Source: Deltaproteobacteria bacterium
Lineage (GTDB): Bacteria > Campylobacterota_A > Desulfurellia > JAGGSF01
NCBI GenBank assembly: GCA_021159235.1
Contig: JAGGSF010000083.1
Coordinates: 1 to 33,584 of the forward strand
Length of the DNA stretch: 33,584 nt
Direction of reading: 5' to 3'
Positions 5,856-25,339 of this stretch are shown here, piece by piece. Every line of letters starts with the position of its first letter. Position 1 is the first letter of the stretch. The notes under the pieces are model-generated. The model saw only the letters and a program-made list of their open reading frames with translations. It was not told the origin of the DNA and ran no database searches. The translations under genes were made by a program, and so were the position numbers.

Positions 5856-7388
5856 TCGCACATAAAAATCTAAAACATCCAGATAAGAAAACATCAAATC
5901 TGCACCTTCTCCCAGATACGCTTTTTGAAAGTATTTCTTTTTGAGTGATCTTTCAAATTCTCTTATGGATAATCTTTCTTCAAAAGCAGCTAAAGCAGTA
6001 CGGCGACTGTTTTCAACGAAGGCTCTTCTAACCAGATAAAAATTATCTAAAATGCGTTTATGTAAGGATGCAATATCATTGCTCTTCTCAGAACAAAAAT
6101 ATATACCGCCTATCTCCGGCAACCGTCTCTTTACAAGCTGTGCAATGTGCCCCAGCTCACTGGCTATGGAAACAAGCATCGTCATTTCTAAGGATTCTGC
6201 CTCACTAAGAGATTTTTGAGACATCTTGGAAGAAAAGGAGATAATTTCAGGAACATAATTTTCAACATAATTTATCCCTCTGAGAAGTTCCCGCTCATCA
6301 AGCCCCTCTTTCAATATCGCCTTCCTGCTTTCTTCTGTTACTTTTATCGTTACATTTAAAAGATGCGCCACGTGTTTATGTAAGATGGACAGAGCCATTT
6401 GAGGAGTGAGAATCAACGCATCATTCAAACTTAGATAATGAAATCTCTTCAGTGGAATAAGAAAAGAGATGAATTGAGAAAAGGGCTTTAGAAATAAAAG
6501 AAATGGTATTGCCACTAAAACATTAAATAAAAGATGAGCGGTAGCAATCTGCCTGTCTATCTGAAAGGCAAGGGGATGAGAAAGTGCGGCTACCAGGAAG
6601 GAAAAGTAGTATAGAAATGGAAAGATTAAGATTACACCAATGACATTGAATAAAAGGTGAGAAAAAGCTACCTGCAAAGCTCTCCTATCTCTTATGCCTG
6701 CATAAGCAAAGAATGTAACTATACATGTTCCTATATTTGCTCCAAAAACTATCGGTATGGCAGAAGTTAGACTCAGGTATCCCGAATGTGCCAGAACCAT
6801 GGTTATGCTAATTGTAACCAAACTGGATTGGATAAAGGCGGTAAGTATTATAGCTATAAGAAGGAGCAGGAAATAATTATAATTATGAGAAAATCCTTTT
6901 ATGAGAGGAAAAATCTTATCCCCTGCTGTACCTGCAATGGTAGAAACAATGTATAAACCGAAAAAAACGAGTGAAAGTCCTAAGAAGATAGAAACTATTA
7001 CCCGGTGTTTTGTCTTAAATGTAAAGAGATATACGAGGAGAATGAGAAAAAAGGCCAGGGGCGCAAGACTGTATATATGAAAGGCAACAATCTGAGCAGC
7101 GATCGTGGTACCGATATTTGCTCCGATGATAAAAGAAATGGCATCGTATAGACTTATCAATGCCGCAGAGGTAAAACCAACTAACATCACGCTCGTTGCA
7201 CCAGAACTCTGAAGTAACGCTGTCAAAAAAAAGCCAATTAAAAAGGATTTGTATTTACCACCTGCAAATCGATCCACAAGTGTTCTCACGCCCTTTGATG
7301 TAACAACCTGAAGATTTGAGCTGACCATATTCACTCCATACATAAGTAAAGCGGTGCCGCCTAATATTCCGATGATAGTGCTAATCAT
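5802..7388 (-). CDS. Na/Pi cotransporter family protein with C-terminal PhoU-like helical region
   Basis: Duplicated motif GANIGTTIAAQIVA / GANIGTCIVTFFA and QSSGATSVMLVGF / QSSLVTISITMV, followed by a charged helical C-terminus. Confidence 0.9.
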   Translation of the reverse strand: MISTIIGILGGTALLMYGVNMVSSNLQVVTSKGVRTLVDRFAGGKYKSFLIGFFLTALLQSSGATSVMLVGFTSAALISLYDAISFIIGANIGTTIAAQIVAFHIYSLAPLAFFLILLVYLFTFKTKHRVIVSIFLGLSLVFFGLYIVSTIAGTAGDKIFPLIKGFSHNYNYFLLLLIAIILTAFIQSSLVTISITMVLAHSGYLSLTSAIPIVFGANIGTCIVTFFAYAGIRDRRALQVAFSHLLFNVIGVILIFPFLYYFSFLVAALSHPLAFQIDRQIATAHLLFNVLVAIPFLLFLKPFSQFISFLIPLKRFHYLSLNDALILTPQMALSILHKHVAHLLNVTIKVTEESRKAILKEGLDERELLRGINYVENYVPEIISFSSKMSQKSLSEAESLEMTMLVSIASELGHIAQLVKRRLPEIGGIYFCSEKSNDIASLHKRILDNFYLVRRAFVENSRRTALAAFEERLSIREFERSLKKKYFQKAYLGEGADLMFSYLDVLDFYVRLNVLVGHIARILLGQIF

Positions 7389-8190
7389 TCATTATCTTCA
7401 GGATCTTTTCTATGTCTTTTTTTGACTTAAGGGCAAAAAAGGCGCAACTCTCATTTAGATTTAATGGAAAACTGAACTCATGTCCTTTCATATCTACCAT
7501 TACGCCGCCCGTTTCTTTTAAAATGACACCTGCTGCGGACCAATCCACTACTCTTGAGGGAAGGGGATGAATAAAAACATCAAAAAAACCGGCGGAAAGG
7601 TAACACATATCCAGTGCGGTAGAACCCATCATCCTTAACCGATAAAAATGATTAACCATACTTTCAAACATCCGAACATCTTTCGTTCTATCTATTCCCT
7701 CACAAACGGCGAAAGAAAAACTATTACTTTCATTGACAATGTGTTTTTGAAAGGAGCCTGTTACATCAGATAAAAAGGCCCCCCTTCCTCTGATAGCTGA
7801 AAATTCTTCGCCAGTAGGAATGTTGAGCACATAACCTACAGTTAAACCGTTCGTTTCGCTTGTCTCTGAAAGAGCGATGGAAAAAGCATAGTATGGAATA
7901 CCTCTCTTTGCATTAAGGCTGCCATCTATCGGGTCTACAACCACAATTGGAACTCTGCTCCCAAAATCTCTAATTCCCACTTCCTCTGAAAGAAGCATAC
8001 ATGGCACATTGAATCTCTTTAATTCTTCTATTACTATGTTTTCTGCTACTTTATCTATGAATACAGTGACATCACCTCCTGCTCCTTTGCCCAAAGTCTG
8101 CTTTGCCTTTTCGGTGCCAGCAATCTTCTTTACCTCATAAAATATTCTTTTTCCCATTGTTTTAAAAAGATCAAGCCACCTGTCTTCCAT
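7381..8190 (-). CDS. inositol monophosphatase family protein (IMPase/FBPase-like)
   Basis: LLSEEVG, VVVDPIDGSLNAKRGIPYYAFSIAL, VDWSAAGVILKETGGV. Confidence 0.9.
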   Translation of the reverse strand: MEDRWLDLFKTMGKRIFYEVKKIAGTEKAKQTLGKGAGGDVTVFIDKVAENIVIEELKRFNVPCMLLSEEVGIRDFGSRVPIVVVDPIDGSLNAKRGIPYYAFSIALSETSETNGLTVGYVLNIPTGEEFSAIRGRGAFLSDVTGSFQKHIVNESNSFSFAVCEGIDRTKDVRMFESMVNHFYRLRMMGSTALDMCYLSAGFFDVFIHPLPSRVVDWSAAGVILKETGGVMVDMKGHEFSFPLNLNESCAFFALKSKKDIEKILKIMND

Positions 8191-9014
8191 TACATGTTCT
8201 CTAATGTTTCACGCACTTCTTCTATCACGTAATCAGGTGTGGAAGCACCAGCTGTTATACCTACAACCTTACATCCCTTAAACCATTCCTTCTTCACTTC
8301 TTCTGCCCTCTCAATATGATAACAACAAGAACATATAGTTTTACATATATCATACAATCTGCGGGTATTGCTGCTATTGTAACCTCCCACCACTATCATC
8401 ACATCCACATCCTTAGCCAGTTTCTTCGCACTCTTCTGCCTTTCTACAGTCGCACTGCATATCGTATTAAATATACGTAACTCCTCTACCTTCTTCAAAA
8501 GTTCATCTACTACATTGATCAACTTGGATGTTGATTGAGTGGTTTGGGAAACAACACCTATTTTCCTGCCCCTTATCTTTTTCGCCTCATCTACACTGTT
8601 GATCACCACAGCTTTTTTGGCATAGCCCAATAATCCTTTTACTTCAGGATGATTGTTGTCTCCAACGATCACTACTCTGTAATCCTCATCACTCAGCATC
8701 TTTACAAAATTCTGCGTTTCTTTTACAAAGGGACAGGTAGCGTCAACCACCTCCAATCCTTTTTCGCGTGCTTTTCTTACCATTTGAGGGGGAACGCCAT
8801 GAGAACGAATAACAACCACACCCTCTTTTATTCCATCTATCGTGTTGATAACTTTTACCCCCTCCTTCTGTAGTGCTTCTACTACCTGTGGATTGTGGAT
8901 CAAAGGACCCAAGGAGTAAACCGTCTGTTTTCTCTTAACAACCTCACGTGTTAAAGCAATAGCCCTTTTTACACCAAAACAGAACCCTGCGTTATCTGCT
9001 ACTATTACTTTCAT
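8190..9014 (-). CDS. ispH: 4-hydroxy-3-methylbut-2-enyl diphosphate reductase
   Basis: AGFCFGVKRAI, IRSHGVPP, DATCPFVKE, GDNNHPEVKG, SQTTQST, NTICSATVERQ, VVGGYNSSNTRRLYDIC, GITAGASTPD. Confidence 0.96.
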   Translation of the reverse strand: MKVIVADNAGFCFGVKRAIALTREVVKRKQTVYSLGPLIHNPQVVEALQKEGVKVINTIDGIKEGVVVIRSHGVPPQMVRKAREKGLEVVDATCPFVKETQNFVKMLSDEDYRVVIVGDNNHPEVKGLLGYAKKAVVINSVDEAKKIRGRKIGVVSQTTQSTSKLINVVDELLKKVEELRIFNTICSATVERQKSAKKLAKDVDVMIVVGGYNSSNTRRLYDICKTICSCCYHIERAEEVKKEWFKGCKVVGITAGASTPDYVIEEVRETLENM

Positions 9015-16462: not shown

Positions 16463-17563
16463 ATGAAAGCGATGAAGAATCTGTTTACCGTAAACCTGAA
16501 AGTAAAAAAGGATGAAAGAGTTCTCGTATTTACGGACACGATAAATGAAGAGGAAAATATATCTTCTAAGGAGAGAGAAAGAAGAGAAAAATTATTCCTG
16601 CTGGCTAAACAAATACAGATGGCAGGAGAAAAATACTGTCATACCTCTTTCTTCTCTTATCCCGCTTTGATGTCCCATGGAAAAGAACCGCCAAGAAAAC
16701 TGTGGGAGGAGGTATTTGGAAAAGAAAACATAAGAAAGATAGAAGAATTTTGGCAAAAGATAGAGGAAAAAACACTAACAGAAGATGAAGAAAAAAAGAT
16801 AAGAGATACACTGAAAGGTGCTCATTACGATGCCTTTATTGCATTATCAAACTTCTCTACCACCCATACCCTATTCAGGCGCATACTGACAGATGTATGC
16901 GGAGCAAGGTATGCCAGTATGCCACTGTTTGATGAAGAAATGTTTTCTGGTCCTATGGCTGTAGACTGGCAGAAGATGTGGCAGAGAACAGAAAAGGTAA
17001 AAAATATATTAGAGGGAACAAAGATGTTAGAAGTTTTTACACCTCAGGGTACACACCTTGAAATCTATCTGAATGGAAGGAATATTCTTTCCGATACCGG
17101 TGATTTGAGTAAAAAGGGTTCCTGCAGTAATTTGCCAGCAGGTGAGGTATACTTTGCTCCTGAGGAAGGAAAAACAAAAGGAAAAATGGTTATTGAGTAT
17201 TCACCTACACACAGGTTAAAAAACCCTCTTATACTGCATATAGAAAAAGGAAATTTATTGAACATAGAGGGTGATGACCCTTTTAAGGAAAGATTAAATG
17301 CTATCTTTGAAAGAATGCCCTTGGCTAAGAATGTGGCAGAACTGGGCATAGGAACGAATGATAAGGCAAAGAGGGCAGACAATATATTGGAAGCAGAAAA
17401 GATATTGGGCACGGTGCATGTAGCATTTGGAGACAATGCATCCTTCGGCGGTAATGTTTCTGTTCCATTTCATGAAGACTATATCCAGTTTTATCCCACT
17501 GTGGTTTTACACAAAGAAACGGGCAGTTTTCTTCTCCTGCAGGGAGGAGAATTGTGCATATGA
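16463..17563 (+). CDS. M29-like aminopeptidase (leucyl aminopeptidase / aminopeptidase T family)
   Basis: Metal-ligand-type motifs in order: NLPAGEVYFAPEEGKTKG, NVAELGIGTND, EAEKILGTVHVAFGDNASFGG, VPFHEDYI. Confidence 0.8.
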   Translation: MKAMKNLFTVNLKVKKDERVLVFTDTINEEENISSKERERREKLFLLAKQIQMAGEKYCHTSFFSYPALMSHGKEPPRKLWEEVFGKENIRKIEEFWQKIEEKTLTEDEEKKIRDTLKGAHYDAFIALSNFSTTHTLFRRILTDVCGARYASMPLFDEEMFSGPMAVDWQKMWQRTEKVKNILEGTKMLEVFTPQGTHLEIYLNGRNILSDTGDLSKKGSCSNLPAGEVYFAPEEGKTKGKMVIEYSPTHRLKNPLILHIEKGNLLNIEGDDPFKERLNAIFERMPLAKNVAELGIGTNDKAKRADNILEAEKILGTVHVAFGDNASFGGNVSVPFHEDYIQFYPTVVLHKETGSFLLLQGGELCI

Positions 17564-18522
17564 TTTTTATACTCTTTATTTTTTCCTTCATTGTTGCTTT
17601 TATTCTATTTCCTTATCACATTAAATGTTTTGTCAGAAGAAAGATTACAGGAAAGGACATGCACAAGAAAGGTAAAAGGATGGTCCCGGAGATGGGGGGT
17701 ATGGTTATCGTCTTTTCCTTTTCCTCGGGCATTGTCTTACTTACAGGATGGAAAACATTCTTACAGAAGGATCTTCCAGTGGATACCTCTTCTTTGCTTT
17801 CCGTCTTGTCCGTTGTTCTTATCATAGGTTTGATAGGTGTTATGGATGATTTTTTGAACATCAGACAGAGGGTAAAGGCTATCTTGCCTATATTTGCCGC
17901 TCTGCCACTATCTGCCATTAAAGCCGGTACACCAACCATGTCTCTTCCCTTCGTAGGTCAGGTTTACTTTGGCATTTTCTATCCACTTTTACTTGTTCCC
18001 ATCGGTGTAACAGGTGCCTCTAATGCCTGGAACATGCTGGCAGGATTTAACGGACTGGAAGTAGGAATGGGCATTGTAGCTATGATTTTTTTATCTGTTG
18101 TTGCCTACCTGGTAGGATCTACAACTGCACTCTATATTTTAGCCATAGCACTGGGGACACTTTCTGCTACTTTATACTACAACTGGTATCCGGCTAAGGT
18201 TTTCATCGGTGATGCAGGGACACTATCCATAGGAGCAATTATAGCCTGCTGTGTAATCTTGGGTAATTTTGAAAAGGCAGGTGTAATTATCGTTATTCCC
18301 CATATTGTTGATTTTTTAATAAAAGCCATACACCGGTTTCCAAGCAAAGGATGGTGGGGTTTGTATAAAAATGGTAAACTCCATTGCCCAAATAATAGTC
18401 CCGTAGGCTTATGTCAGCTTATTATGAAGATTTTCAAAGGCATCAGTGAAAAGAATCTGGTTTTGCTCCTGATGGGTATTGAGACAATATTTGGGGCAGT
18501 AGCGGTTCTGGTTTATCTATGA
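17560..18522 (+). CDS. GT4-family UDP-GlcNAc (or similar): polyprenyl/dolichyl-phosphate sugar-1-phosphate transferase, archaeal/eukaryotic GPT-like
   Basis: Multi-TM protein; DMHKKGKRMVPEMGG, GVMDDFLNIRQRVKAILP, ASNAWNMLAGFNGLEVGMGI, NWYPAKVFIGDAGTLSIGAI, IPHIVDFLIKAIHRFPS. ATGA overlap with upstream stop; SD GGAGGAGA. Confidence 0.85.
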   Translation: MIFILFIFSFIVAFILFPYHIKCFVRRKITGKDMHKKGKRMVPEMGGMVIVFSFSSGIVLLTGWKTFLQKDLPVDTSSLLSVLSVVLIIGLIGVMDDFLNIRQRVKAILPIFAALPLSAIKAGTPTMSLPFVGQVYFGIFYPLLLVPIGVTGASNAWNMLAGFNGLEVGMGIVAMIFLSVVAYLVGSTTALYILAIALGTLSATLYYNWYPAKVFIGDAGTLSIGAIIACCVILGNFEKAGVIIVIPHIVDFLIKAIHRFPSKGWWGLYKNGKLHCPNNSPVGLCQLIMKIFKGISEKNLVLLLMGIETIFGAVAVLVYL

Positions 18523-19241
18523 TTACATTTAAGGTTTTGCAACAGTTTTTACTTCCCAGCGTGTTTTTATTCGTATTACTTATCATCGGTTTAATCCTCT
18601 TCAGTAAAAGAATAGGAAAGATTTTTGTCATCCTCTCTATATTTTTCTATTATATCTTTTCTATTTCCCCTACTGCCGATCTAATCATTTACCCCCTGGA
18701 AGGAAAATACAGACAATGCAGAAGTTATATAGATACGGTTGTGGTTTTGACAGGTGGTGTAAAAAAAGGGAATCTGCCTTTGACCAGCAGATTGAATGAA
18801 AGCACCTTGTATAGGGCGGTGGAGGCGTTACGCATATTTGAAAACAATAAGAATGTAAGAATCATCATCTCTGGCAGAAATCCTATGAATGAAAAGGAAA
18901 GAGAGGCAGTATTTGTAGAGGAATTCATGAAGAGATTTGGTGTTCCAGAGGAAAATATACTGGTGGATACAAGGTCCAGGAATACCCGTGAAAGTGCCTT
19001 TAACCTGAAACTATCTTTAAGAAAAAAACCATTTCTTCTGGTAACCTCTGCTTATCATATGCCCCGTGCTCTATATATATTTAGAAGATATGGCACAAAT
19101 CCCGTGCCCTGTCCCTGTGACTTTAAGAGAGAAAAGCATTACAACATTTTAGATTTTTTTCCCAATCCCCGAAACTTGAGAAAATGCAACTTAGCGTTTC
19201 ACGAATACTTTGGCATCCTGTGGTATCATGTGGGATTTTGA
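18519..19241 (+). CDS. DUF218 (YdcF/SanA/ElyC-like) membrane protein
   Basis: Two N-terminal TM helices, then VVVLTGGVKKG, RAVEALRIFE, IIISGRN, VDTRSRNTRESAFN, PFLLVTSAYHMPRALYIFRRYG. Confidence 0.88.
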   Translation: MITFKVLQQFLLPSVFLFVLLIIGLILFSKRIGKIFVILSIFFYYIFSISPTADLIIYPLEGKYRQCRSYIDTVVVLTGGVKKGNLPLTSRLNESTLYRAVEALRIFENNKNVRIIISGRNPMNEKEREAVFVEEFMKRFGVPEENILVDTRSRNTRESAFNLKLSLRKKPFLLVTSAYHMPRALYIFRRYGTNPVPCPCDFKREKHYNILDFFPNPRNLRKCNLAFHEYFGILWYHVGF

Positions 19242-20373
19242 TGTAGTCATAATTGGGGGCGGACCTGCAGGATGCGTGTTGGCGGAAGAGATAGGAGATG
19301 AGGTCTCTACCCTGGTGGTGGAGGAGGACAGAGAGATAGGAAAACCTGTAAGGTGCGCAGGTTTTGTCAGTGAAAGATGTATAAAGGAAGCAGACGCATA
19401 CGAATCAATACTGAAACAAACCAGTAAAATAGTTATTCATTCACCCAAGAGATCTGTGGTTGTAAATACAAAGGAAAGATTGTTTGTTATAAAGAGAGAC
19501 AGGTTTGATCAAATTATATTTAAAAGAGCAGTAAAAAAGAAAAAGGTAGAATTTGAATTAAATACAAGAGCCATAGGAAATGATGGAAATACTATTTTTT
19601 TAAAGAGTAAAGATGGATTAAAGACTGTAAGAGCAAAAGTTGTTGCAGGTGCGGATGGGGCTTTGAGCAATGTGGCAAGATGGTTTTCCTTCCCGCCTGT
19701 AAGCAAAAATTTATATGCATTTCAGCCATATATCCCCTACAATAAAGAAGAGGTGGAGGTCTTCTGGGGGAAAGATATTACTCCTTCATTTTTTTCATGG
19801 ATTATACCGGAAAATGGTATAGCGAGAATTGGTCTGGCTTCTCAAGAAAATCCATATTTTTATTTTAAAAATTTTTTAAACCGATTTACGGATGAAAGGT
19901 TAAAGATTACAGGAGGAGTTATCCCTATTGGGGCAAGAAAGAAAACGGTGAAGGGAAATGTAATACTCATAGGCGATGCAGCAGGGCAGGTGAAACCCAC
20001 CTCGGGAGGAGGACTGTATACCGGCATCGTTTGTGCGAAGGAAGCAGCCAATGCAATTAAAGAGGCAATATTTTCTGAAGACATAAAAAGACTTTCAAAT
20101 TATGAAAGAAACTGGAGAAAAAAGATAGGAAGAGAACTTTATTTCGGAATGCTTGTTCATAAGATGAGATGCAGGATTTCAGATGAAGGAAGAGATAGAT
20201 TTGTATCTTTTGTTTCTCGTTACAAAAGATTGGTAGAAGACAATGCAGATATAGATTATTTGAGTAAGATAGCAAAGAAGATATGGAGATACCCTGCTGC
20301 CTGGCGTGAAATATTGCACATCATTCCTCCCTACAGGTTTATTCCTTTAATGATTCGCTCTATATTCAGGTGA
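19228..20373 (+). CDS. geranylgeranyl reductase family FAD-dependent oxidoreductase
   Basis: N-terminal FAD site FDVVIIGGGPAGCVLAEEI, GKPVRCAGFVSE, RDRFDQIIFKRA, GADGALSNVARW, VILIGDAAGQVKPTSGGGLYTGIVCAKEAANAI. Confidence 0.88.
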   Translation: MWDFDVVIIGGGPAGCVLAEEIGDEVSTLVVEEDREIGKPVRCAGFVSERCIKEADAYESILKQTSKIVIHSPKRSVVVNTKERLFVIKRDRFDQIIFKRAVKKKKVEFELNTRAIGNDGNTIFLKSKDGLKTVRAKVVAGADGALSNVARWFSFPPVSKNLYAFQPYIPYNKEEVEVFWGKDITPSFFSWIIPENGIARIGLASQENPYFYFKNFLNRFTDERLKITGGVIPIGARKKTVKGNVILIGDAAGQVKPTSGGGLYTGIVCAKEAANAIKEAIFSEDIKRLSNYERNWRKKIGRELYFGMLVHKMRCRISDEGRDRFVSFVSRYKRLVEDNADIDYLSKIAKKIWRYPAAWREILHIIPPYRFIPLMIRSIFR

Positions 20374-20374
20374 T

Positions 20375-20419
20375 ATGCAGATAAAAATACTCGGCGCAGA
20401 ATCATTGGGTGTCAGGTAA
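20375..20419 (+). pseudogene. 14-codon stub MQIKILGAESLGVR*, resembling the N-terminus of a UPF0282-type (beta-lactamase-fold) protein
   Basis: ATG two nt after the upstream stop; peptide matches the recalled N-terminal signature xESLGVRS of UPF0282 proteins, then TAA and loss of similarity in all three frames up to the convergent gene. Confidence 0.5.
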
Positions 20420-20429
20420 GTTTACAATT

Positions 20430-21203
20430 TCATCTCTTAGTGAATTCGATATTTCTTACCTTATGGGGATCAATTTTCTCAATGAATTTTAATTCTCTTT
20501 CCGTAGGTAGTTTTGTTACTTTCAGATTTTCTGGAATTATTAAATCGAATCCCGTATTCTCTATTACCTCTTTTAATTCTACACCGGGATGAATAGATTC
20601 TATCCTCATTTTCTTTGTTTCTTCATCAAAATTCAAAACGCACAGATTTGTTATCACCTTTTTTGGTCCACCGTCTAATCCCTTTATTTTTCTCTCTTGT
20701 CCTCCCTTTAAATATCCCTGTCCTGTGATAAAATCCAATTTTTCTACAAAAACCCTTCTGTTGTGGTTTGGTATCCATATGATTGTGGGAATAATCGCAC
20801 AGAGATGGGCAGTTGCTGCTCCACCGGGAAGTCTTACCTTTGGTTTTTTGTAGTCTCCAATAACGCTTAAATTCGTGTTTCCATACCTGTCTATCTGGGC
20901 AGCTCCTAAGAATATCAGGTCTATCTTTTTTCTTTGAGCAAGATCAAAAACATCAGATAGTGGGATATAGGCTACAGCTCTTTCTTCCAGCTTTGGACCT
21001 GCTGTTGAAAATGGAACAAAGTCCGGCTCGGGGTCTATCGTATCTGCTGTATTGAAATATACCATATTCGGAGCATGAAAATTTTTTGCCAACAGGCAAG
21101 CGATCATGGGCATCGGTGAATAAAGTCCCTGCAAGACCATATCTCCATCTGCTATCTCCCTTGCCATGCATGTTATCATCAACTCTGCAATACTTACCAT
21201 CAT
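20430..21203 (-). CDS. CoA-transferase family subunit beta (GctB/IpdB-like)
   Basis: GAAQIDRYGNTNLSVIGDYKKPKVRLPGGAA, NRRVFVEKLDFITGQGYLKGG, VITNLCVLNFDEETKKMRIESIHPGVELKEVIENTGFDL. Confidence 0.85.
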   Translation of the reverse strand: MMVSIAELMITCMAREIADGDMVLQGLYSPMPMIACLLAKNFHAPNMVYFNTADTIDPEPDFVPFSTAGPKLEERAVAYIPLSDVFDLAQRKKIDLIFLGAAQIDRYGNTNLSVIGDYKKPKVRLPGGAATAHLCAIIPTIIWIPNHNRRVFVEKLDFITGQGYLKGGQERKIKGLDGGPKKVITNLCVLNFDEETKKMRIESIHPGVELKEVIENTGFDLIIPENLKVTKLPTERELKFIEKIDPHKVRNIEFTKR

Positions 21204-22015
21204 TCTTCCTTTTCAAAACAGTATTTATCTAAGTATTCCTTAAATCCTTCCTCCGTTTTTGTAGCTTGCGCATAGAGTTTTATGTGCTCGTCATCACTAT
21301 CATAAAAAACATCACAGGATGTAGGCCATGCTCCCTCAGGCTTATGCACCAGAGCAGTTACATAGATATACGGTATCGTTGTCAGGTAAGGATTCTTCCT
21401 TATCTCTTCTGAAGACAAAATTTCTTCCACTGTTACTATTGTTCTTTCTGCTGCCTGTGCCATAAGCACATCTTCAAACGGGGGACCAACTGTTATAATG
21501 TTTCCATACCTGTCTGCACCATGAGCATGAATAAGAGCAACATCAGGTTTTATTGCTTTTACCGCAACCAGGTGCTGTCCCGTAAAAGGGCAGTTTATCT
21601 CTTTCATATTTTTGTTTACCTTCAAAACATCGGATTCAAACATTCCTCCAATAGGCAGGAAAGGAATACCCATTTTCGCAGCTCTTAAGGCAGAGATAAT
21701 GGAATAACAGGCGTGTTCATCTACTTCAACTTCTCTCTTTTCGATTTTCCTTCTAAAGTTCATAGCCAGACCAAATTCTTCCAGAGATACCATAGCAAAT
21801 GAAACCTTTCTTACACAATTTGCCCCTATCAGCATGTCAAAATCCATGCCCTTTTCTCTGCCTACGATGTGAAGATCTCTCTTGTTTTGTCTTATAACTT
21901 CTCTTATCAAAGCCATAGGCGAGCGATTCCTTCCACAGCCGCCAATAGCAACTGTGTCTCCATTCTGAACAAACCGACCTATTGCTTCCTTCAGATCCAT
22001 AAGTTTTCCTTGCAT
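21200..22015 (-). CDS. CoA-transferase family subunit alpha (GctA/IpdA-like)
   Basis: GDTVAIGGCGRNRSPMALIREVIRQ, VRKVSFAMVSLEEFG, VDEHACYSIISALRAAKMGIPFLPIGG, PDVALIHAHGADRYGNI, QAAERTIVTVEEI. Confidence 0.87.
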   Translation of the reverse strand: MQGKLMDLKEAIGRFVQNGDTVAIGGCGRNRSPMALIREVIRQNKRDLHIVGREKGMDFDMLIGANCVRKVSFAMVSLEEFGLAMNFRRKIEKREVEVDEHACYSIISALRAAKMGIPFLPIGGMFESDVLKVNKNMKEINCPFTGQHLVAVKAIKPDVALIHAHGADRYGNIITVGPPFEDVLMAQAAERTIVTVEEILSSEEIRKNPYLTTIPYIYVTALVHKPEGAWPTSCDVFYDSDDEHIKLYAQATKTEEGFKEYLDKYCFEKEE

Positions 22016-22024
22016 GTCTTTTAT

Positions 22025-23398
22025 TTACTCCATTAAAAGTAGATTGAACAGTGATTTGAAATTTTCCAATTTTTCAATGTTCCACAATATATTTAACACC
22101 TCATCTATTCTGTTTTTATCTATCATGTTTTTCACATTGCTTCTGAATTTTTCTTCAACTTCAGAATCTGTCATGGGATTTTTGGCATGTCCTTTTGGAT
22201 AACACACCTCTTCTGAAAACACTTTTCCATCTTTTGTTCTTACGATAATTCTATTGGGTATGCCATCGGGGTAAAGTCTGGATAAATCCTTGCAGCTGTT
22301 CAATTTGACATTATTCTTTAGAAAATTCATTGTTTTTTTATCATTCAATCTCTCTTTACTGAAAGACTCCTTTGTAACCTTTCCATCTAAAAGTGCAGTT
22401 AAAGTGATATAAGGCAAAGAGTGATCCGCCGTTTCTCTGGTTTTAGGCTGCCATTTCTCCGGGTCTTTGGCCAGTATCTCGTAGGATACATCAAATGTAT
22501 CAATGGTGAGTTCTTCTATCTTTTCTACGTTCAGATTTTCCTTCAGGTTGATGGCTGCTTCCACTGCACTCTGAGCATGATACTCAACAGGCCAGAATTT
22601 GATATGTGTATCCATTATCCTTTCCGGAGGTCTCTTTTCTGAAATGGTTTTCAATCCTTCCATATGGATAGAATCTTTTAATAATAATTTGTTAAAACCC
22701 ATTTCACCTTCAAATGGTCTGTTAGGTCCGGTAAAACCCTTTTCTGCCAGTAGAGAGGAAAATATTGCATTTTTAGAAGCATTTGCAGCGGCAGCTCCTT
22801 TCCACATGGAGAGTTCTCCTGCTCTGGTTTGTCTCATTGCTGCATGCGGCACAATCGTTAGAGCGATGGCGTTTTTTGTGTTTTGAACATTCATATTCAG
22901 AAGTTTTGATGCTCCTAAAACCACACCAATTGCTATGAAGTTTACATGGTCCCAGCCATTTTTCCTTAAAGATCCACTATCGCAGAGAGAAACTGCTGCC
23001 TCATATGCTGTGGCAATGGATGTAACCAGATCCTTCCCATTATTTTTATTATATTCGGCAAGGGCTAAAAGAGGCATTATGACATCCGATGGATGAATGG
23101 GTTCCAATGATAGGTAGGTGTCGCTGAAATCGAGGTATCTTACATGAAGACCATTTATGAAGGCAGCAAGTCCTGGTGTGGTTTTAACAGGCGTGCCAAT
23201 GACCGTTGCCCCGTTGGACAGTCTAAAGTCGTATCCCATCTTCCTTGCAATTTCTGGTGTCTGCTCGGAATATGCGGCAACAGCCACCCCTACGGAATCT
23301 ATTATACGCCTCTTTACTTCATGTATGACCTTCGAAGAGATTTTCTCAAAACTTACATTTTTTGCATAATCCGCAAACAAACTGGAAAACCTGTCCAT
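22025..23398 (-). CDS. MmgE/PrpD family protein (2-methylcitrate dehydratase-like)
   Basis: HEVKRRIIDSVGVAVAAY, NGATVIGTPVKTTPGLAAFINGLHVRYLDFSDTYL, HPSDVIMPLLALAEY, NGWDHVNFIAIGVVLGASKLL, MWKGAAAANASKNAIFSSLLAEKGFTGPNRPFEG. Confidence 0.92.
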   Translation of the reverse strand: MDRFSSLFADYAKNVSFEKISSKVIHEVKRRIIDSVGVAVAAYSEQTPEIARKMGYDFRLSNGATVIGTPVKTTPGLAAFINGLHVRYLDFSDTYLSLEPIHPSDVIMPLLALAEYNKNNGKDLVTSIATAYEAAVSLCDSGSLRKNGWDHVNFIAIGVVLGASKLLNMNVQNTKNAIALTIVPHAAMRQTRAGELSMWKGAAAANASKNAIFSSLLAEKGFTGPNRPFEGEMGFNKLLLKDSIHMEGLKTISEKRPPERIMDTHIKFWPVEYHAQSAVEAAINLKENLNVEKIEELTIDTFDVSYEILAKDPEKWQPKTRETADHSLPYITLTALLDGKVTKESFSKERLNDKKTMNFLKNNVKLNSCKDLSRLYPDGIPNRIIVRTKDGKVFSEEVCYPKGHAKNPMTDSEVEEKFRSNVKNMIDKNRIDEVLNILWNIEKLENFKSLFNLLLME

Positions 23399-23409
23399 AT
23401 AGAACTCCC

Positions 23410-24492
23410 TTATTTAAAGATGATATAAGGGACATATACCCTACCATCCATCAGGCGGCGTGCTGTTCTTCCCATAGAAACACTCCTTACACTTATCTCT
23501 TTATTAAATTCTATTTCTGTTTTTACATCCATAATGCCAGAGGGGTGAAGAATGTTCAGTTTATCTCCATTTTTTCTGGCAACTTCATATACGACTGTTC
23601 CCGGGATTTTAGATGCCGCTCCTATGCATACCGCAGCTGTTGCGGCATAACTTTCATGCACTCTGCCCATAGAGAGCATAAAAGAGATAATATCAGCATT
23701 TTCATCCTTTGAAGACTGAACCAGTGCTATTTTGGGAATGGCTGCTGACCTTGAAGATGCCTCTTCTAAGTTCTCTGCAAATCCTAAAACACAGGCCACA
23801 TAATCCCTTATTTCATTCAATCTATCAACTGAGCTTCTCTTATCCCATGTTCTTAAATCTATTTCCACATCCTCTGCCCTTACAAAAACCATAGGATTTG
23901 ATACATCCAGGATGGATGCCTCAATTGCTTTTTCACCTATATTTAATGTTTCTTTTCTCTTCCCGGTGGGAAATAGTTTCCCCGTTTTTGCCCCTGCAGG
24001 TTCAATGTATTTTATATCTATTCTTGCGCCACTTTTTTTAACGCCGGCAATAGAATAGTTTCCCTGGCTAACGGACTTTCCATTCTTTACAGGGACAGTA
24101 ATTTCAAACCTCTTTCCCGTGTTAATGTTTAATACCTTTATGCTTGTCTTTGGTTCTTCTGCCTTTATCAAACCCTCATCTATGGCAAATGGTCCTACAG
24201 CAGAAAGCAGATTCCCGCACATTCCCTTATAATCAACAATGGGTTTATCTATTCCTACCTGTGCAAAGAGATAATTTATATATTCATCCTTTTTTGAAAT
24301 TACCACCACTTTACTGGTATGTGAAGTTGCACCACCCAAACCGTCTATCTCTCTTTTATCCGGACTTCCTAAGGCAGCTAAAAATACATCATCCCAGAAT
24401 TTTCTTTCTGGAAGGTCCTTTTCATGAAAAAATAGTCCCCTGCTGGTGCCACCACGGTATACAACAGCAGGTATGCCGAAAAGATCATACAT
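23410..24492 (-). CDS. prpF: PrpF-family isomerase (2-methylaconitate / methylitaconate isomerase-like)
   Basis: IPAVVYRGGTSRGLFFHEKDLP, LAALGSPDKREIDGLGGATSHTSKVVVIS, YLFAQVGIDKPIVDYKGMCGNLLSAVGPFAIDEGL, NTGKRFEITVPV. Confidence 0.93.
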   Translation of the reverse strand: MYDLFGIPAVVYRGGTSRGLFFHEKDLPERKFWDDVFLAALGSPDKREIDGLGGATSHTSKVVVISKKDEYINYLFAQVGIDKPIVDYKGMCGNLLSAVGPFAIDEGLIKAEEPKTSIKVLNINTGKRFEITVPVKNGKSVSQGNYSIAGVKKSGARIDIKYIEPAGAKTGKLFPTGKRKETLNIGEKAIEASILDVSNPMVFVRAEDVEIDLRTWDKRSSVDRLNEIRDYVACVLGFAENLEEASSRSAAIPKIALVQSSKDENADIISFMLSMGRVHESYAATAAVCIGAASKIPGTVVYEVARKNGDKLNILHPSGIMDVKTEIEFNKEISVRSVSMGRTARRLMDGRVYVPYIIFK

Positions 24493-25339
24493 ATTTTTTT
24501 AAATACTCATTGTAACCTATGAGTTTATAAAGCTCATCTCTGGTATACATCAAAGGAACAGAATCCTTCTGGCTGCCTGTTTCCTTTATCTCTTTTAATA
24601 CATGAAATGTGGCTTTCATAGCCATTCTCAATGTGGTAACGGGAAATATTACCATCCTGTATCCCATCTGTTCAAACTCTTTAGCGGAGATATACGGACT
24701 TTTTCCGAATTCTGTCATGTTTGCAAGTAAAGCGCCATTTACTTCCTTAGAATAGATTTCAAATTCTTCTCTCGATTCCAATGCTTCTGGAAATATCATG
24801 TCTGCTCCTGCTCCTAAATATGCCTGTCCTCTTTCTACAGCCTCTTTAAATCCCAGAGGAGTTCTCGCATCTGTTCTTGCTATTATTAAGAAATTTTTGT
24901 CCTTTCTTGCTTCCACAGCTGCTTTTATCTTGTCTATCATCTCCTCTTTGGTGATAACCTCTTTTCCTTGAAGATGACCACATCTTTTAGGAGATACCTG
25001 ATCTTCTATATGAATGCCGCATACGCCTGTAGACTCAAATTCTTTCACCGTTCTTTCAACATTGAGCACTCCTCCATAACCTGTATCTGCATCAGAGATG
25101 ACAGGAAGATTAACGGCTTTTACTATCCTGGATGCACATTCCACCATCTCTGTTAATGTCAGCAGCCCGTGGTCCGGCAGTCCATACTGTGCCACGCATA
25201 CTCCTCCCCCCGTCATATACACTGCATCGAATCCCAAATTTTCTACCATTTTAGCAGATATGGCATCGTAAGCGCCGGGAACAACGAGGATATTATCTTT
25301 TTTCAAAAGCTCTCTTAACCTTTTTCTTCTCTCTAACAT
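24485..25339 (-). CDS. isocitrate lyase / PEP mutase superfamily lyase (PrpB- or dimethylmalate-lyase-like)
   Basis: VVPGAYDAISAKMVENLGFDAVYMTGGG, PVISDADTGYGGVLNVERTV, GIHIEDQVSPKRCGHLQGKEVI, FLIIARTDAR, GADMIFPEALES. Confidence 0.92.
   Translation of the reverse strand: MLERRKRLRELLKKDNILVVPGAYDAISAKMVENLGFDAVYMTGGGVCVAQYGLPDHGLLTLTEMVECASRIVKAVNLPVISDADTGYGGVLNVERTVKEFESTGVCGIHIEDQVSPKRCGHLQGKEVITKEEMIDKIKAAVEARKDKNFLIIARTDARTPLGFKEAVERGQAYLGAGADMIFPEALESREEFEIYSKEVNGALLANMTEFGKSPYISAKEFEQMGYRMVIFPVTTLRMAMKATFHVLKEIKETGSQKDSVPLMYTRDELYKLIGYNEYLKKYV

Follow-up and report, generated by a model that had tools for sequence, protein, structure and literature searches.

The subject of this study is a compact run of co-oriented genes in a 33,584-nucleotide stretch of DNA, the whole of which is hereafter called the window, where a sugar-phosphate transferase of the GPT type, a DUF218 protein and a flavoprotein of the geranylgeranyl-reductase (GGR) family follow one another. 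The host organism, an uncultured relative of Desulfurella and Hippea (NCBI: Campylobacterota, Desulfurellia), has a small genome of 1.13 Mb, assembled into 122 contigs. The locus comprises the following features:

16463–17563, + strand: M29-like gene (thermophilic aminopeptidase family), first gene of the unit (PF02073, 36.1 bits; cut-off 27)
17560–18522, + strand: GPT-type polyprenyl-phosphate sugar-1-phosphate transferase, 320 amino acids (PF00953, 120 bits; alternative start GTG at 17554)
18519–19241, + strand: DUF218 protein, ElyC-like, 240 amino acids (PF02698, 102 bits)
19228–20373, + strand: GGR-family flavin adenine dinucleotide (FAD) protein, 381 amino acids (TIGR02032 GG-red-SF, 193.4 bits; cut-off 158.8)
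20375–20416, + strand: remnant of a metallo-β-lactamase (MBL)-fold gene, 14 codons (DNA alignment with the genus-mate locus L074; tblastn with the MBL protein)

Each gene of the unit overlaps the next. The M29-like gene and the transferase gene share 4 nucleotides (ATGA, 17560–17563), as do the transferase and DUF218 genes (ATGA, 18519–18522), and the DUF218 and GGR genes overlap by 14 nucleotides (19228–19241). A preliminary description, made from the sequence alone, had defined a cassette of three genes; their positions and overlaps are confirmed by the coordinates, and the unit is now seen to start one gene earlier because the upstream M29-like gene also overlaps the transferase gene. The order M29-GPT-DUF218-GGR is kept in both genus-mates (G001, G002), and its conservation in three independent assemblies at 85–92% protein identity argues against a chance arrangement. 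As a unit of this genus the cassette thus stands; as a general one it does not, since DUF218 is found beside GPT only here. In the genus-mates (L074, L077), the GGR gene is followed by an intact MBL-fold gene and then by a DUF748 gene. Relative to L074, a clean deletion of about 1.7 kb (20375–20430) has removed the MBL-fold and DUF748/TIGR03545-like genes from the window.

The transferase almost certainly belongs to the GPT branch, the archaeal and eukaryotic lineage to which it had provisionally been assigned. Among solved structures, the single protein matches human DPAGT1 with 79 bits and MraY with 44, and the family profile gives 107 and 60 bits, respectively; the host's own MraY, encoded in the mur operon on contig C21 and used as a control, ranks the two oppositely (MraY 253, DPAGT1 37). 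In a midpoint-rooted tree of 43 proteins, in which WecA enters only through unlabelled "other GT4" rows and no characterised AglH is included, the window transferase lies inside the GPT clade with a support of 100/100, outside MraY and the other bacterial GT4 enzymes. Approximately unbiased (AU) tests reject joining the window genus to MraY (p = 0.0003) and to the other GT4 enzymes (p = 4e-52). The AlphaFold2 model (pLDDT 90.6) superimposes on DPAGT1 with TM-scores of 0.84–0.89, compared with 0.67–0.78 for MraY. An identity as MraY or WecA is ruled out by the tree, the AU tests, the motifs and the fold taken together.

The roles of K125, N185 and D252 of DPAGT1, and those of its substrate-site residues, have been described (PMC6218659). 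Equivalents of this catalytic triplet are kept in the window protein, where the DPAGT1 set is present as K106 (catalytic lysine), N158 and D218 (Mg-binding asparagine and aspartate), N164 (uracil-binding) and E44 (ribose-binding). The uracil-site residue, N191 in DPAGT1, is asparagine in all 85 GPT-type rows of the alignment (3 from the genus, 33 bacterial, 49 archaeal), in all of which the glutamate of GFNGLE is likewise found; the uracil-site position is aspartate in 20 of 20 MraY rows and in 27 of 29 other GT4 rows. The window transferase has neither this aspartate nor MraY's HHH motif. The RHR loop by which DPAGT1 recognises N-acetylglucosamine (GlcNAc), located after transmembrane helix 9, is not present; the window protein has HRFPSKGWWG there, and bacterial GPTs carry a loop of the FPSKGWWG...GKLYCP type, which is common to some archaeal ones, too. 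Because the RHR loop is lacking, the protein is not filed as DPAGT1/Alg7 itself, and GlcNAc is only a candidate donor sugar. In summary, the enzyme resembles eukaryotic DPAGT1/Alg7 and archaeal GPT (AglH) in clade, fold, catalytic Lys/Asn/Asp, uridine-binding Asn and Glu, and C-terminal segment, and differs from them in its replaced loop, in its bacterial host with normal peptidoglycan genes alongside and in its genus without an STT3 partner.

A clear GPT (at least 306 bits) was found in six of the 386 bacterial genomes sampled around the window, with the next best match at 86 bits. A scan of named genomes recovered bacterial GPTs of 48–60% identity in Aminicenantes, Aerophobetes, Atribacteria and Bipolaricaulota/Acetothermia and in one record each of Dehalococcoidia, Clostridia and Planctomycetota; the archaea with GPT in the same scan were Altiarchaeota, Methanothrix, Micrarchaeota and Bathyarchaeota. 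The bacterial proteins form one cluster beside Methanothrix, inside the archaeal lines, and the nearest GPT outside the window genus is that of Aminicenantes JdFR-78 (99/97). This topology, read from sequences under a root that was not inferred, suggests a transfer of GPT from archaea to bacteria. A 2025 phylogeny of the MraY-like family reported GPT only in archaea and built a scenario of early evolution on that distribution (PMC11915815). An earlier phylogeny described one mostly bacterial group and a second in which most archaeal and eukaryotic sequences fall; the leaf colours of the figure include bacteria (PMC4973528). The presence of GPT in several bacterial groups contradicts the archaea-only distribution and points to transfer between the domains.

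Two side observations concern these records. The GPT of a record labelled Thermoplasmatales archaeon JdFR-43 (L113) closely resembles the one in the bacterial Acetocimmeria record (L119), and the label is probably wrong. In some Atribacteria, two different GPT-type transferases are encoded per glycosyltransferase cluster (L090:3187–4155 and 7995–8957; L092:2625–3593 and 6300–7268).

Only two PF00953 proteins are encoded in the window genome, namely the MraY of the mur operon and the GPT of the window. Starters of the PF02397 family were not found in any of the three genus members, and they are present in the three Hippea/Desulfurella-type genomes tested (G003–G024 are provisionally assigned to these types on the basis of kinship). 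Hence, GPT is the only candidate found in this genus to start a lipid-linked glycan other than peptidoglycan, and very probably this is what it does. PF02397 was also not found in six of eight other GPT-bearing bacteria tested.

Three other accounts of the transferase have to be weighed against this assignment. That the bacterial GPTs are archaeal contamination of metagenome bins is barely credible: nearly all sequences do come from metagenome-assembled genomes, and the archaeal label of L113, whose GPT groups with bacteria, might be taken in the same sense, but two of the bacterial genomes (G124, G262) are single contigs and the window gene lies amid bacterial genes on its own contig (aspartate kinase, accA, MurJ, MmgE/PrpD), which makes contamination unlikely; moreover, three independent genus assemblies agree, and the bacterial copies cluster on their own within the archaeal ones. 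It is extremely improbable, too, that the enzyme is a spare or replacement peptidoglycan transferase with MraY function and without a glycan of its own. The MraY and GPT clades are sisters in the midpoint-rooted tree and the folds are those of the same superfamily, but a normal MraY is encoded on contig C21 and ranks with the solved MraY structures, the two MraY hallmarks are absent from GPT, and grouping with MraY is rejected by the AU test. The third account is a full archaeal-style N-glycosylation, with GPT starting a dolichol-linked glycan that STT3/AglB transfers to protein; a glycoprotein had indeed been offered as one possible product in the preliminary description. GPT starts N-glycans in eukaryotes and in Sulfolobus (PMC5222938), and STT3 does occur in two GPT-bearing bacterial genomes tested, G398 and G401, the latter from a record labelled archaeal. 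Apart from these, STT3 (PF02516, curated cut-off) was not found in the window genome and its genus-mates (together G000, G001, G002) or in the other GPT-bearing bacteria tested, and archaeal controls were positive. Its absence from the genus speaks against N-glycosylation and for a polysaccharide; STT3-type N-glycosylation is accordingly rejected for the window genus and is very unlikely as an explanation of the unit.

The last gene of the unit scores above the TIGR02032 cut-off and is, as first read, a flavoprotein of the GGR family. It contains the FAD-binding GxGxxG, the GD motif and the tryptophan of xxWxxP, with G10, G12, G15, C43, W191 and G249 invariant (alignment A4; alignment with 3oz2). 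Its model (pLDDT 92.1) finds its best fold match in the archaeal digeranylgeranylglycerophospholipid reductase 3oz2 (TM-score 0.84). The protein reaches at most about 90 bits with the archaeal-lipid models NF041080, NF041160 and NF041385 (cut-offs 580–780) and 63 bits with the chlorophyll model ChlP, TIGR02028 (cut-off 505); the menaquinone model MenJ (NF045655) is not among its 25 best models, and the GGR of locus L079 scores 43 bits with it (cut-off 700). A grouping with menaquinone- or chlorophyll-specific reductases, which had been named beforehand as the outcome that would speak against a role in the glycan pathway, is thus not seen in the curated model scores, the tree being one that lacked those enzymes. 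In that tree, the window GGR falls within a clade of GGRs from GPT-bearing genomes, apart from the sampled GGRs of its own class and from most sampled bacterial ones; those of the Hippea/Desulfurella relatives, members of the same class, form a different branch (AU test against joining, p = 4e-43). Among GGRs of GPT-bearing bacteria that are not adjacent to GPT, 13 of the 14 sampled share the clade of the adjacent GGRs (99/98). Since about half of the bacterial genomes (186 of 386) yield a strong GG-red-SF match, counting the mere presence of a GGR is uninformative.

Further GGR-family genes were noticed in this group of organisms. The window genome has a second, very divergent one (L076:3700–4812, contig C18) beside genes for TatD and a PAS hybrid kinase, which is a candidate menaquinone reductase. 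In the Desulfurella-type relative G006, another is divergently arranged beside an STT3/PglB-type oligosaccharyltransferase gene (L235:5011–7044, 7103–8158), and the same pairing is present in G013 and G019.

What ties the reductase to the transferase is their gene linkage. Of 29 bacterial loci, 6 have a co-directional GGR gene no more than 3.3 kb downstream of GPT (window genus, Aminicenantes, Aerophobetes, two Atribacteria and Bipolaricaulota); for a 1.7-Mb genome with one or two GGR genes, chance would give 0.1–0.2 such loci. With the window genus, from which the idea arose, left out and the Atribacteria merged, four lineages remain, for which the Poisson probability, calculated by hand, is about 5e-6 to 6e-5; the test is rough, as flanks are unequal and metagenome contigs short. 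Neighbourhood conservation, proposed earlier as a check, is hence borne out for the GPT-GGR pair, whose repeated adjacency in other phyla supports a functional link. In Bipolaricaulota, seven loci have GGR beside a Wzy_C O-antigen ligase, some of them deep-branching and lacking an adjacent GPT (family confirmed by Pfam in two loci, and in the others by sequence similarity), and in Atribacteria it is located beside a phosphomannomutase/phosphoglucomutase gene. The literature on Bipolaricaulota with dolichol and on partly saturated bacterial carriers yielded nothing on a GPT-GGR pair.

Some flavoproteins near GPT were set aside. Those adjoining GPT in Altiarchaeota, initially taken as GGR on a weak profile match, are CrtI/amine-oxidase-like, and that of locus L102 is glutamate-synthase-like. 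The Altiarchaeota FAD protein (PRK07233-like) lies directly downstream of GPT (L089:2861–4207, L094:973–2397, L110:1200–2516; also in L091, L093, L098 and L103) and is possibly an unrelated flavoprotein partner of the same pathway.

For the substrate of the reductase, the polyprenyl carrier and menaquinone are the two main contenders. GGR-family enzymes of archaea and actinobacteria can saturate menaquinone side chains. To our knowledge, there is no route to menaquinone, archaeol-type lipids or chlorophyll without a UbiA-family enzyme, and a search for UbiA in 12 GPT-bearing bacteria outside the genus was negative in 10, among them G124 and G262 (single-contig genomes, 99 and 96% complete, respectively), and positive in G386 and G399. 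Where a UbiA-family enzyme is lacking, the isoprenoids on which the reductase would most obviously act are the polyprenyl carrier and its precursors, and a cis-prenyltransferase was found in 18 of the 20 genomes tested. In Haloferax, loss of GGR abolishes saturated dolichol phosphates, and another member of the family, AF_0648, reduces menaquinone (PMC10821996). The window reductase shares with archaeal GGRs (3oz2; Haloferax GGR) the GG-red-SF membership, the FAD motifs, the conserved cysteine and tryptophan and the best fold and sequence match; it differs from them in scoring far below the archaeal-lipid equivalog cut-offs and in having relatives in bacteria without detected UbiA and, hence, without a known archaeol route. 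On gene linkage and substrate elimination, we hold with moderate confidence that the reductase acts on the glycan carrier.

The competing account has the reductase saturating menaquinone side chains, its adjacency to GPT reflecting a loose grouping of membrane-lipid genes and GPT using ordinary undecaprenyl phosphate. It gains from the activity of AF_0648 and from the host itself, in which menaquinone could be the substrate because UbiA and a cytochrome c assembly gene are present. It loses in that the same GGR clade adjoins GPT in genomes without detected UbiA (G262, G387, G390, G393, G403), that MenJ scores are negligible and that the GGRs of the UbiA-bearing Hippea/Desulfurella relatives belong to a different branch, and we regard it as rather unlikely. 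Several findings nevertheless weigh against a dedicated GPT-GGR carrier module. UbiA occurs in all three genus genomes as well as in the Hippea/Desulfurella relatives, and the window genome has the cytochrome c assembly gene, too; 9 of 15 bacterial loci with more than 3 kb of downstream sequence have no adjacent GGR; at least eight bacterial families in which no GPT was detected also have GGRs of the clade, which is, therefore, not GPT-specific; and the two trees disagree, the window GPT but not the window GGR being sister to Aminicenantes. In view of the last two points, strict co-inheritance of GPT and GGR has been lowered as an explanation. In one genome, G051, which has a GGR of the clade and no detected GPT, the GGR gene lies 400 bases from a contig end, and the missing GPT may be an artefact of that position. 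Finally, no glycosyltransferase cluster is present in the window, the rest of the genome not having been searched for one.

The DUF218 protein scores 117 bits with the ElyC model NF007794 (cut-off 205), has no solved relative by sequence and is filed as DUF218, ElyC-like. In Escherichia coli, ElyC has a part in the metabolism of lipid carriers (PMC3879167) and regulates the enterobacterial common antigen (ECA), an effect for which allocation of undecaprenyl phosphate is reported not to be responsible (PMC8609368). Because ElyC acts on carrier metabolism and on ECA, an ElyC-like protein beside a starter of the N-acetylhexosamine-1-phosphate type is plausible as a regulator, a role that, by this analogy, we assign to it tentatively. 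The WecA-started ECA pathway with ElyC resembles the present unit in having a GlcNAc-1-phosphate-type starter alongside peptidoglycan, together with an ElyC-like DUF218 protein; it differs in that the window starter comes from the GPT branch, the DUF218 protein remains under the ElyC cut-off, and no wec genes were seen in the window.

By the usual division between the domains, bacteria rely on MraY and WecA with unsaturated undecaprenyl phosphate, and archaea rely on GPT with saturated dolichyl phosphate. On balance, we lean towards reading the window unit as a module of archaeal type, acquired by its host, that starts a lipid-linked envelope glycan. To judge from family, fold and active-site residues, GPT would move a UDP-linked sugar-1-phosphate (GlcNAc or a relative) to polyprenyl phosphate at the cytoplasmic face, replacing the usual bacterial starters of the WecA or PglC/WbaP type, which were not found in the genus, beside a normal MraY/MurJ peptidoglycan pathway. 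GGR would act on the polyprenyl carrier or its diphosphate precursor and reduce some of the double bonds, yielding a partly saturated, dolichol-like carrier, which GPT could prefer and which would be kept apart from the undecaprenyl phosphate of peptidoglycan synthesis. The ElyC-like DUF218 protein, if it behaves as its E. coli namesake, might adjust the sharing of carrier or precursor between the GPT pathway and peptidoglycan, and an STT3-type N-glycan would be a less likely product than a polysaccharide or a glycan resembling an O-antigen. Whether several bacterial phyla use a GGR-made, partly saturated polyprenyl phosphate, primed by GPT, for an envelope glycan that is parallel to, and chemically apart from, the undecaprenyl phosphate of peptidoglycan seems to us a nearly even question. 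Saturation of the carrier by the paired reductase, should it occur, would give bacteria a chemical means of separating two carrier pools, a point of direct relevance to how peptidoglycan and other surface glycans share undecaprenyl phosphate.

Partly saturated polyprenyl phosphate carriers have a bacterial precedent in mycobacteria, which use octahydroheptaprenyl phosphate; we know of no GPT-type starter or GPT-GGR gene pair there.

As for the surroundings of the unit, an Rfam scan of the window gave no match. A minus-strand cluster resembling a methylcitrate cycle follows at 20430–25339 and comprises genes for CoA-transferase A/B, MmgE/PrpD, PrpF and a member of the phosphoenolpyruvate-mutase/isocitrate-lyase family.

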